Shown: positions 24,174 through 28,640 of the stretch, in pieces
Layout: each line of letters starts with the position of its first letter
Numbering within the stretch: the stretch's first letter is position 1
NCBI RefSeq assembly: GCF_013388945.1
Contig: NZ_JACAEH010000011.1
Span: 1-33,755, forward strand
DNA from: Nitrososphaera sp.
Lineage (GTDB): Archaea; Thermoproteota; Nitrososphaeria; Nitrososphaerales; Nitrososphaeraceae
Length of the DNA stretch: 33,755 nucleotides
Reading direction: 5' to 3'
Program-made: the position numbers and the translations under genes
The notes under the pieces: model-generated
The model's database searches: none
What the model was told of the DNA's origin: nothing
The model's input: only the letters and a program-made list of their open reading frames with translations

Positions 24174-24250
24174 GCTCGCGATCTGCAGGACAACATTTGC
24201 GGGCGTGCTTGTCAGCAAAATTTGCCCCAAACGCTTTTAGCTGCGAGCCG

Positions 24251-24357: not shown

Positions 24358-25260
24358 TTGAAAATAGGCATCGCCTCGCACATTGTGCTTGACACGATAA
24401 AGAGCGGAGGCAGCACGGTACAAAGCCTGGGCGGGCCGGCGTGCTACTGCGGGATAACTGCGAGGCGATTTGGTTTTGACGTCGAATTGGCGACAAGGGT
24501 GGGAAGCGATTTTCCCGACGACGCCCGGAACATCCTGCGCGACAACAACATCCCTCTTAAAGAGCGCAGCATTGCAGACGGCCCGACGACGCGGTTCATG
24601 CTTGAAGACAGCGAGCCGCGAAAGCTGGTCTTGCAGTCAAAGTGCAGGCCCATTTCAGAGCAGGACATTGCAGACATGAAGGTCGACTGCTGGATTGCAA
24701 GCCCCGTTATCGACGAAATACCGGCGTCGGTGCTTGAAGCTATAAAGAAAAACCGCGGCAAAAAGGACTTTGTGATGCTCGACCCTCAAGGGTACATGAG
24801 AGAGGTGGATGCCGCAGGCGGGATTACCTTGAAGGACAAAATAGACATCGACCTGGCAGGGATAACTGCAATCAAGGCAGACAGCCAGGAACTGGCCGCG
24901 CTCACGGACGGCCTGCAGGGCGTGGAAGGTATGAAGGCCCTGCAGGCAAGGGGCGTCGACTTTGTCGTGACAACCGAGCACAGGGTAATCCACATGCTGC
25001 ACAAGGACATGCACTACTGGATAAAGCTGCGCGACATCGACACGCCGGACGCAACGGGGGCCGGCGACATCATCGCTTCTGCGTTTACGTGCGCGTGGGT
25101 GAAGGAGAAGGACGCGCTGTGGGCGCTCTGCTTTGGCGCAGGGGCCCTTCGCGCCGCGCTCGAGACAGGCAAGGCAGGCCTTGCCAAGATACCTCCGATG
25201 TCAAAGATAGAGTCTAGCGCCTCGTACTTTTACAACACGGTGAGCTTCAAGGACGTCTAG
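24358..25260 (+). CDS. PfkB (ribokinase) family carbohydrate kinase
   Basis: This 300-residue protein has the family layout. The N-terminal substrate lobe shows GGSTVQSLGGPACYCGITARRFG and VGSDFPDDA, and the ATP/anion-hole motif is DTPDATGAGDIIASAF with the catalytic Asp of GAGD. Between them are TTEHRV and LDPQGYMRE, the latter where other members carry the DxN-type strand. Substrates in the family include ribose, adenosine, cytidine, fructose phosphates and tagatose phosphate. No feature fixes the one here. The first residues MKIGIASHIVLDTI are compact, as in archaeal nucleoside or sugar kinases of about 300 residues. A TTG start lies behind a TATA box. Confidence 0.88.
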   Translation: MKIGIASHIVLDTIKSGGSTVQSLGGPACYCGITARRFGFDVELATRVGSDFPDDARNILRDNNIPLKERSIADGPTTRFMLEDSEPRKLVLQSKCRPISEQDIADMKVDCWIASPVIDEIPASVLEAIKKNRGKKDFVMLDPQGYMREVDAAGGITLKDKIDIDLAGITAIKADSQELAALTDGLQGVEGMKALQARGVDFVVTTEHRVIHMLHKDMHYWIKLRDIDTPDATGAGDIIASAFTCAWVKEKDALWALCFGAGALRAALETGKAGLAKIPPMSKIESSASYFYNTVSFKDV

Positions 25261-25323: not shown

Positions 25324-27606
25324 TTGGAGCGACTTTTCAGGTCTGGCTTTTCCATTGCCTTGGCATCTCTTGTGCTTGTAGGCATCTTTGCCCCATTTAC
25401 CCAAATCAAAGCCCAGACTCCTGCCCAGTCCCTTGGAGTAAAGATCGAGATCGCAGTTAACGCGGACACGAATACGGTCTATGTAATGAATCCTTCCAAG
25501 AACACCCTGAAAATAATAGATGGTACGTCGGGTTTTGAAAAAGCCGTGGTCCGATTGGGCTTCATTCCAGGGGGACTTGCCGTCAACAGCAACACGAACA
25601 CCGTTTATGTCACTGACCCTCTGGGCAACGAGCTGGTAATCTTTGATGGCAGTACCGGCCATGTTCTAGCAGACATTGCTGTCAAGAGCAGGCCGCACGG
25701 AGTGGCGGTTGATCCTGCGACAAACAGGATTTTTGTCGCAAATGTCGGAAATCGCAGCATTTCGGTTATTGATGGCTTTACTAAACAGTCTTACCGAGTC
25801 GCGCTTGACGCCGACCCGCGCGACCTTGCTTTCGACGAAGGGACGAAGACTCTCTATGTCACGAGTCCTGCGGCCAACAAGGTCTTCGTGCTTCCAAATA
25901 ACGCTGTCTATCTCATCCCTTCCGTCGCTGTGGGGACGTTTCCTGACGCGATAGCGGCAAATCCAATTACGGGCAAGGTGTATGTGGTCCACCGTTTGGA
26001 AAACTTTTTCTATGCAATAGACGGAGACCGCAATCTGTCGCCCAAGGTCACTGGTGAATGTCTGAGAGGAGGACCCAAAGATGTCACAGTTGACCCTGTT
26101 ACTAACAGAGTCTACATGGTGTCCTCCTATAGCCGGTACATCTGCGCGGTAGACGGAGTGACCCACACAGCTACCGAATTTCTGTTTTCAAAGGAAGCGG
26201 GCACTGGTCCTTTTGCCATAGCGGTAAACGTAAAGACCGGAGTCCTCTACGTGGCTGACGAGTCGCGCGACACGGTCTTTATTGTAGACGGCAACGCACA
26301 CGTGGTCTCTACCCGGCTCGCCGTGGGCGCAAATCCTGTAGCGGTAACAGTCAATCCGGCCACTAACAAGGTTTACGTTGCCAACAAGGCGGACAACACC
26401 ATCCACGTGATAAACGGCACGACAAACGGCAGGATAAGCTCGATATCACTCGACAGCAGCCCAGTTGCTCTGGCCGTGTTTCCCGCGGCAAACAGGATAT
26501 ATGCAGTCACAACGGGAGTCGGCTCCCTGACGCTGATAGAAGGCGAAAGCGACACAGTGGTGAGAAGACTGGAAATCGGCTCAGACCTTGTCGACCTTGC
26601 AGTCAACCAGATAACGGGGCAAGTCTATGCTATTGACAGGGCCGATTCTACTTTGTTCATAGTGCCTTCCGACGCCAGCCAGACGTTGGCTGCGCTACCT
26701 CTGTCTGCGGCCCCGACTGCAATCGGAGTAGATTCGGCGAGGCATCTTGTCTACATTGCAAGCGAGACTGCAAACAATCTTACCGTGATGTCTGAAGATG
26801 GTGCCGTCTTGTCCAGCATGTCTTTGAGCTCGCCAACTGACATAGCTGTAGACTATGCCACATATTCGGCATACGTTGGTAGCCGGCTTAACACCAAGCC
26901 CAGCGTAAACGTAATAGATGAAAGTAGGCTCAAGGACACCATTTCACTTGGCCGCGGGGCAACCGACCTTGCCATCAACCCCTCATCCGGGATGTTGTAT
27001 TCTGCTCACTCTAACGGCTTTGTCTCCGTAACGAGCCTTGCAGACGGGGAGCTACGCGCCAGAATTCAGATAGGCGCCACCGCTGCGGACATGGCCGCAA
27101 ACCCGACCTCCAACAAAGTCTATGCGGTTCTGCCAAATTCCAACAGCGTAGCCATAATAGAAGAAAGAGTCCGGCAGTTCAGAGGAATCCAGGAATCGCT
27201 GAACCTGCAGGATGCCCGACAGGTGTTACAAAACGGCAAGCCTGCAGACTCGCTTTCTCGCCTTGAGGGCCACCCGGAAAGACGTTTTGAGATTAGAAGC
27301 ATAAACATCGGCACAACGGGCCAGCCAGCGGTGGGTCAGGAATACAACATCGAGATATCCGTAAAGGATAACGCGGGGTCATCAGTCGCTCACGTTTACA
27401 TAGTGCAGGTCGTCGGGCCGGAAGGAGACACCGTACTGGTTGACCTTATTTCTGCCAACACCGCAGCCTACGGCGCGATACTTTCTTCCTGGGTTCCACA
27501 GATGCCCGGCTCGTATACAGTCAAGGTGCTTATCTGGGATACCGTAACTCGCACCCCAACGCCTCTATCTCTGGGGGCCGAGATGCAGGTGCAGGTTGCG
27601 ACCTAG
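25324..27606 (+). CDS. Secreted YVTN-repeat protein, 14 blades plus C-terminal beta domain
   Basis: This 760-residue protein starts with a signal peptide (residues 1-31, cleavage probably after IKAQ). It continues with 14 repeats of about 42 residues of the YVTN type (consensus VNPxTNxVYVxNxxxNTxxVIDG) up to about residue 635. A non-repeat domain of about 120 residues that looks Ig-like and beta-rich closes it. Seven repeats make one propeller, so 14 suggests two tandem seven-bladed propellers. Such archaeal proteins are usually surface or extracellular binding proteins. The start is TTG at 25324, behind TTAATTAT (25289-25296). Codons are visibly more AT-rich than in neighbours (many TCT, GTT, AAT), hinting at a different history. 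Confidence 0.85.
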   Translation: MERLFRSGFSIALASLVLVGIFAPFTQIKAQTPAQSLGVKIEIAVNADTNTVYVMNPSKNTLKIIDGTSGFEKAVVRLGFIPGGLAVNSNTNTVYVTDPLGNELVIFDGSTGHVLADIAVKSRPHGVAVDPATNRIFVANVGNRSISVIDGFTKQSYRVALDADPRDLAFDEGTKTLYVTSPAANKVFVLPNNAVYLIPSVAVGTFPDAIAANPITGKVYVVHRLENFFYAIDGDRNLSPKVTGECLRGGPKDVTVDPVTNRVYMVSSYSRYICAVDGVTHTATEFLFSKEAGTGPFAIAVNVKTGVLYVADESRDTVFIVDGNAHVVSTRLAVGANPVAVTVNPATNKVYVANKADNTIHVINGTTNGRISSISLDSSPVALAVFPAANRIYAVTTGVGSLTLIEGESDTVVRRLEIGSDLVDLAVNQITGQVYAIDRADSTLFIVPSDASQTLAALPLSAAPTAIGVDSARHLVYIASETANNLTVMSEDGAVLSSMSLSSPTDIAVDYATYSAYVGSRLNTKPSVNVIDESRLKDTISLGRGATDLAINPSSGMLYSAHSNGFVSVTSLADGELRARIQIGATAADMAANPTSNKVYAVLPNSNSVAIIEERVRQFRGIQESLNLQDARQVLQNGKPADSLSRLEGHPERRFEIRSINIGTTGQPAVGQEYNIEISVKDNAGSSVAHVYIVQVVGPEGDTVLVDLISANTAAYGAILSSWVPQMPGSYTVKVLIWDTVTRTPTPLSLGAEMQVQVAT

Positions 27607-27614
27607 CTTTAAAT
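27607..27614 (+). promoter_or_regulatory. TATA box of the NAD kinase gene
   Basis: CTTTAAAT overlaps nothing but the end of the previous gene's stop region and is about 31 bases before the ATG at 27642, leaving a leader of only a few bases. Confidence 0.55.
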
Positions 27615-27641: not shown

Positions 27642-28640
27642 ATGAGGGTAGCGCTCTGGGGCGTTGACTCGAGGGACGGCGCTCTTTTGTCAAAGATGAA
27701 AAAGACGCTCGAGTCTCTGGGCGTCCGGTCGCAGATAATGAAAGACGACTACAAGGCGGCAGCAGAAGTTGACATGGTGCTTGTGGCCGGTGGCGACAAG
27801 GGAATACTGAACTACTTCCACAAGGTACAAGCCGCGTCTGCGCCAGTGCTCGGCATCTACGAGACTGACTCGACCGGCTTTCTTGCCCAGCTTGAAGTGC
27901 GCGACTTGGAACCTGCCACCCGCAGGCTAAAGCGTGGCGAGTACGAGGTAGACGAGGTGACGCGGCTCAAAGTAACAGTCGACGGCAGAGAAGTCGAACC
28001 TGCGCTAAATGACGTTGCAGTGTTTCCCGGCAAGAGCGCGACTTTGATGGAGCACGTCTTGAAAATAGACGGCAAGGACATCTGGCACGATCAGAGCGAC
28101 GGCGTCATCATCTCCACGCCGACAGGGTCGACTGCGTATACCATGTCAGCAGGCGGACCCATGGTCCTGCAAAAGTCGCAGGTGTTCTTGATAGTTTCTG
28201 TAAACTCGCTTGACAACACCAGGAGGCCACTCGTCGTTCCAAGCAGCGCCAGGATAGAGATTGCCGACATCACAAGTCGATATCATTGCGAAGTCGTGCT
28301 TGACGGCGGAAGGCGCGTCAGGGTAAAGAACCTGCTTGAATGCGTCAGGCACGAGCACCCTGCAAGGCTCGTGCGGATGGCAGGCGACCCAGCTGCGTCT
28401 CTCATGGCAAAGAAGGTTCACCTTGCTGAAGACATGCTCAAGATGCCGCCAAGCGCGAAACTGATACTAAAGACGCTCGAGTATGAAGGTGCTCTGAGCC
28501 AGAAAGAGCTTGCGTCAAGGACCATGCTTCCCGAGCGCACAGTGCGGCTTTCATTGTCGCATCTTTTGGACGGCGGCTATGTCAAGAAAAAGACGTCGCT
28601 TCGCGACGCCCGGCAGAGGATCTACGAGCTCAAGATTTAG
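27642..28640 (+). CDS. NAD kinase fused to a C-terminal winged helix
   Basis: This 332-residue protein is an NAD kinase. It shows the GGD motif at 50-52 (here GGDKG, where GGDG is usual), an Asn-Asp at 123-124 before VFPGKSATLMEHVLKIDG, the nucleotide loop DGVIISTPTGSTAYTMSAGGP at about 153-173 and RRPLVVP at 194-200. About 67 residues from 266 follow that are not part of an NAD kinase. They read as a winged helix-turn-helix (ILKTLEYEGALSQKELASRT, then a recognition helix LPERTVRLSLSHLLDGGYVKKK). NAD kinase makes NADP. The extra domain could bind DNA or mediate assembly. The ATG at 27642 is chosen over an in-frame ATG at 27621 because of the TATA spacing. Confidence 0.88.
   Translation: MRVALWGVDSRDGALLSKMKKTLESLGVRSQIMKDDYKAAAEVDMVLVAGGDKGILNYFHKVQAASAPVLGIYETDSTGFLAQLEVRDLEPATRRLKRGEYEVDEVTRLKVTVDGREVEPALNDVAVFPGKSATLMEHVLKIDGKDIWHDQSDGVIISTPTGSTAYTMSAGGPMVLQKSQVFLIVSVNSLDNTRRPLVVPSSARIEIADITSRYHCEVVLDGGRRVRVKNLLECVRHEHPARLVRMAGDPAASLMAKKVHLAEDMLKMPPSAKLILKTLEYEGALSQKELASRTMLPERTVRLSLSHLLDGGYVKKKTSLRDARQRIYELKI

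Follow-up and report, generated by a model that had tools for sequence, protein, structure and literature searches.

A NAD kinase joined to a winged helix: a candidate regulator of de novo NAD synthesis in archaea

How might archaea adjust de novo NAD synthesis? One study lists regulators of NAD synthesis of three kinds, NadR, NiaR and NrtR, all of them bacterial (PMC6800001), and some NrtR proteins have lost their enzyme activity (PMC6800001, PMC10311068). Archaea do have RbkR, which, as cited in PMC8305020, is a bifunctional vitamin-cofactor kinase carrying an HTH domain. In the literature that we searched we found no description of a NAD kinase (NADK) fused to a winged helix. Such a fusion is encoded in the window, the whole 33,755-nucleotide stretch of Nitrososphaera DNA analysed here. 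It differs from RbkR, in which the HTH domain is N-terminal, the kinase is unrelated and the genes concerned are those of riboflavin. From its sequence and genomic context, we consider it likely that the protein is a NAD-kinase-derived transcription regulator, which would act as a sensor-regulator of de novo NAD synthesis.

Domain layout and the altered kinase motif

The fusion gene (27642–28640, + strand) begins with ATG at 27642 and encodes 332 amino acids plus a stop. About 30 bp before the ATG lies a TATA-like box, CTTTAAAT (27607–27614, +), which is conserved in the genus and is a putative promoter element. Pfam, AlphaFold2 and Foldseek assign residues 1–246 (27642–28379, +) to a NAD-kinase-like domain. 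The NADK fold and the family profile (PF01513/PF20143) are both present: Pfam matches NAD_kinase_C at 3e-24 (residues 122–229) and NAD_kinase at 6e-6 (residues 38–101), and in Foldseek the full-length model finds NAD kinases (best E 1.1e-25). A linker helix follows in the AlphaFold2 model (residues 251–266; 28392–28439, +), and then a winged-helix domain (residues 268–332; 28443–28637, +), assigned by Pfam, profile, AlphaFold2 and Foldseek. With the single sequence as query, Pfam matches residues 268–325 to MarR_2 (1e-4) and HTH_24 (3.5e-4), both under the Pfam cut-offs, and a search with a 47-sequence profile extends to HTH regulators of solved structure (7e-6). The AlphaFold2 model, built on the 47-sequence alignment (pLDDT 87), places helices at residues 270–282, 287–294 and 298–310 and strands at 314–318 and 326–330. 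This is the H1-H2-H3-wing order of the MarR-type winged helix, with the recognition helix at 298–310 and the wing, including DAR, at 322–324. The isolated domain matches MarR-family structures in Foldseek, several of them DNA-bound; the matches include MepR-DNA, MftR-DNA and the 6-hydroxynicotinate regulator BpsR. The earlier note had read the protein as a NAD kinase with a C-terminal winged helix and had proposed MarR/ArsR winged helices for comparison, and the Pfam match to NADK, the AlphaFold2 order and the Foldseek matches to MarR confirm that reading. A likeness to RPC34 (Pfam 0.018) was dropped as weaker than the MarR match.

The domain shares with the MarR family the winged-helix fold and the D-x-R wing; unlike MarR proteins, however, it lacks N- and C-terminal dimerisation helices in the AlphaFold2 model, which has a single linker helix ahead of the domain and nothing beyond the wing. 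Presumably the kinase domain would dimerise in their place. Mean pairwise identity in the fused clade is 58% for the winged helix, 57% for the kinase C-domain core and 33% for the kinase N-domain. The recognition helix, on whose conservation the earlier note had staked its reading, is indeed widely conserved in the 47-sequence comparison, together with the wing. Some winged helices bind proteins, and the domain could accordingly serve only protein contact or oligomerisation, with no binding of DNA. We give this explanation very little credence, since R299, T300 and R302 of the recognition helix and D322 and R324 of the wing are near invariant, and the closest folds are DNA-binding MarR proteins.

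The kinase domain has the fold and the NAD-pocket motifs of canonical NAD kinases (COG0061), which in turn have no winged helix and an intact GGDG(T). GGDGT is present in 124/127 archaeal NADKs (PMC8553519). The fusion protein reads GGDKG instead (residues 50–54; 27789–27803, +) and lacks the GGDG motif of NAD kinases: Asp52 is kept and the fourth residue, Gly, is Lys. This variant had been picked out beforehand as odd, and it proves to be both real and clade-wide. Position 53 is Arg in 25, Lys in 14, Ser in five and Gly in only three of the 47 fused sequences (Lys or Arg in 39/47), while Asp52 is kept in 47/47; position 51 is not constant either (T, D, S, E). The canonical NADK copies retain GGDG, the loss of its glycines being confined to the fused clade. 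Sequence comparison places the NE/D motif, here N-D, at residues 123–124 (28008–28013, +) and the NAD-pocket motif TPTGSTAY, which is kept, at residues 159–166 (28116–28139, +). The NAD-pocket residues D52, N123, D/E124, T/S164 and Y166 are retained; they correspond to Ppnk Asp85, Asn159, Glu160, Thr200 and Tyr202, and in M. tuberculosis NADK these equivalents are either essential to activity or bind NAD (PMC8553519). The kinase body had been called normal, which holds for the fold and for the NAD-pocket residues but not for GGDG, whose change is systematic across the clade.

These features fit a protein that would still bind NAD(P) and be poor or changed in phosphoryl transfer. On balance we expect that kinase activity has been lost or has become minor; residual catalysis is possible because Asp52, Asn123 and Tyr166 are invariant in the fused clade. 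Could the protein instead be a NAD kinase that uses another phosphoryl donor, Lys or Arg at GGD[KR] excluding ATP in favour of pyrophosphate or polyphosphate, with the winged helix secondary? In pyrophosphate-dependent phosphofructokinases GGDD favours pyrophosphate, and the systematic Lys or Arg, with the catalytic Asp kept, agrees with such a change. This explanation is nevertheless quite improbable, because it leaves the conserved winged helix, the nadA neighbourhood and the palindrome described below unexplained, and because position 51 is variable too.

Distribution and the separate NAD kinase

Of 300 sampled genomes, 113 carry the fusion; the carriers include 17/17 sampled congeners, all sampled members of the family and members of many other families of the phylum. 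Genomes without the fusion were identified by the winged-helix profile. Conservation among thaumarchaea, proposed beforehand as a check, is thus borne out, and the fusion occurs well beyond them. The named contigs among the close matches to the fusion are those of Nitrososphaera and relatives, and we take families f1, f2, f3 and f9 to be ammonia oxidisers, f9 being Nitrosopumilaceae. In the kinase-domain tree 45/45 fused sequences lie on one side of one branch (support 100/99), with the canonical sequences as the other group. The fusion is a single old, conserved clade and no local oddity.

At least two PF20143 NADK genes are found in 110/113 fusion carriers by hand count, and the three carriers without a second one (G113, G142 and G297) are incomplete assemblies with completeness of 89, 70 and 91%. 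The present genome has its own second, canonical NADK of 270 amino acids with GGDGT (L001:1033-1845, − strand). We note that the motif of this NADK, the canonical one of ammonia oxidisers, is TPTGSTGH; it departs from the STAY of other NADKs at the nicotinamide-stacking Tyr.

These counts bear on the proposal, made in the earlier note, that a trigger enzyme links NAD(P) to gene expression. Such a protein would be truly bifunctional, phosphorylating NAD and also binding the nadA operator according to its occupancy by substrate or product. The catalytic Asp, the NE/D motif and TPxGS[TS]AY are conserved, and archaea offer a precedent in RbkR, whose riboflavin kinase is joined to an HTH domain; set against this, hardly any carrier lacks a separate canonical NADK, and it is only the fused clade that has lost the GGDG glycines. 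We regard a true trigger enzyme as possible but doubtful. The link to gene expression gains support from the operator and gene context given below, whereas a role in supplying NADP is improbable, since almost all carriers encode a canonical NADK separately. We favour a paralogue that has become a sensor-regulator of NAD synthesis.

Finally, related winged helices occur in other settings. Two phosphosulfolactate synthase proteins (ComA, PF02679, 1e-65) of the same genome have a related C-terminal MarR-type winged helix (L121:1803-2855, −, and L122:904-1908, +; contigs C15 and C14 of G000), and further sampled genomes of the family have similar fusions. Small standalone winged-helix proteins of the same type (about 79–107 amino acids) occur in f4, f35 and f20 genomes (L125, L126; G086:C2:63956, G183:C1:1252700, G343:C1:2543373).

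Gene neighbourhood and the palindrome upstream of nadA

Outside the ammonia oxidisers the fusion gene often adjoins nadA-nadC, mostly divergently (f22, f43, f19, f60 and one f26 genome), and in some f26 genomes nadA adjoins it on the same strand. A 13-bp palindrome, GGCAA-N3-TTGCC, recurs in the divergent intergenic regions between the fusion gene and nadA-nadC; f22, f19 and some of the f43 genomes have a palindrome so placed between regulator gene and nad operon, as NrtR does, a likeness of mechanism and not a mark of family membership. In the ammonia oxidisers the fusion gene follows a PfkB kinase gene and faces pyrG, and the same palindrome lies upstream of nadA even though nadA is unlinked to the fusion gene and far from it. 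The PfkB-family kinase gene (24358–25260, +), a conserved upstream neighbour in ammonia oxidisers, is at most a candidate member of the system; it was rejected as a target, the one-mismatch site at 24214 being common only to the nearest relatives. A 760-amino-acid beta-propeller gene (25324–27606) separates it from the fusion gene here, the two being adjacent in most relatives. In five further loci the gene divergent from the fusion gene encodes an MFS protein of the aromatic-acid/H+ symporter family, which might, at a guess, be a nicotinate transporter.

This genome holds nine exact copies of the palindrome (reversed control, zero). Eight are inside long ORFs and were rejected as operators; the sole intergenic copy lies between divergent nadX (aspartate dehydrogenase) and nadA (quinolinate synthase), at G000:C21:36925-36937, both gene names being confirmed by NCBIfam. 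The promoter of the fusion gene itself has no palindrome in this genome, only the conserved TATA-like box, and autoregulation here was rejected. Separately, the window has nine one-mismatch matches to the palindrome against 1.9 expected in shuffles, most of them inside genes, an excess that perhaps reflects codon usage.

In an initial scan for the palindrome near the fusion gene, scores were mixed by family, and the test was therefore moved to nadA. A site scoring at least 9/10 precedes nadA in 48/68 carriers but in 0/41 non-carriers (Fisher p 4e-15); since genomes within a family are not independent, the fairer count is by family, 8/13 carrier against 0/20 non-carrier families (p 9e-5). Shuffled upstream regions reach at least 9/10 in about 1%. 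Since the palindrome was read from some of these carriers, f22, f43 and f19 do not test it independently; f38 and the ammonia oxidisers, to which we turned once the palindrome had been defined, do. Upstream of nadA, no site of at least 9/10 was found in carrier families f3, f4, f6, f25 and f60 or in G217; results for f26 and f43 are mixed. A weak 8/10 site is present in G137, where no fusion was detected.

TTTAAA lies 51 bp from the centre of the site in 10 f1 genomes and 50 bp from it in six f9 genomes, and a site at this 50–51 bp spacing is found just once in each of five ammonia-oxidiser genomes (G000, G020, G044, G087 and G208), in every case at nadA. By eye, f1 genomes show a second, weaker half-palindrome that is closer to the nadA promoter by about 31 bp, with similar pairs in f22 and f43/f19. 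Palindrome pairs about 30–33 bp apart (three helix turns), likewise seen by eye, lie between fusion gene and nadA in L085, L086 and L133–L137 (f22) and L090, L138 and L139 (f19/f43). Such pairing suggests a tetramer or two dimers.

The palindrome might instead be the site of a different regulator shared by the same lineages. Its absence from some carrier families would suit that explanation, and the pairing of palindrome with fusion protein is drawn from sequence. We think it unlikely, because the palindrome also stands beside the fusion gene where the genes are linked and is absent in the 41 non-carriers with nadA, and because the fused protein has a conserved MarR-type recognition helix and wing. 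The fusion protein itself very probably binds the palindrome.

Proposed mechanism and comparison with known regulators

We propose that the degenerate kinase domain keeps its NAD(P)-binding pocket and would sense the NAD(H)/NADP(H) pool, and that the C-terminal MarR-type winged helices, in a dimer or tetramer, would bind GGCAA-N3-TTGCC. Occupancy of the kinase fold by NAD(P) would alter the grip of the paired winged helices on the palindrome, and occupancy of the palindrome would in turn adjust expression of nadA and perhaps nadX. As the site lies between nadX and nadA, the fusion protein would thereby govern how fast NAD is made de novo. We think it quite likely that NAD(P)(H) is the effector. 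As to sign, we lean slightly toward an activator of nadA that works when NAD(P) is low, given the constant distance of 50–51 bp by which the site precedes the TATA element; alternatively, the protein may be a repressor acting via the weaker site nearer the promoter.

It is fairly likely that these proteins form a regulator family that evolved from NAD kinase, its paralogous fold serving as a sensor of the NAD(P) pool and its 13-bp operator conserved, across ammonia-oxidising archaea and many other families; it may be the first archaeal regulator of NAD synthesis to be described. The literature searched suggests that control of NAD synthesis by a NADK-derived regulator has not been described previously for archaea. 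If the proposal is correct, archaea gain a NAD-pool sensor, a gene automatically annotated as NAD kinase is a regulator, and the fusion gene should not be counted as a second source of NADP. There would then also be a defined operator and target open to direct test.

Among the known regulators, NrtR likewise joins an enzyme-derived ligand domain to a C-terminal HTH-type DNA-binding domain, and its gene adjoins a nadA-nadB-nadC operon with a palindrome between them (PMC6800001, PMC10311068). NrtR is bacterial, however, its ligand domain is Nudix and not NAD kinase, and its mycobacterial operator is GTTTTCGA-N7-TCGAAAAC; Pfam finds no Nudix match in the fusion protein, only the NADK domain in its place. 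Similarly, NadR of enterobacteria is a regulator of NAD genes that is fused to NAD-pathway enzyme domains and liganded by NAD (PMC6800001), but those domains are NMN adenylyltransferase and ribosylnicotinamide kinase, and its repressor domain is N-terminal. In the simplest model, the archaeal fusion protein would work like NrtR and NadR while being a member of neither family.
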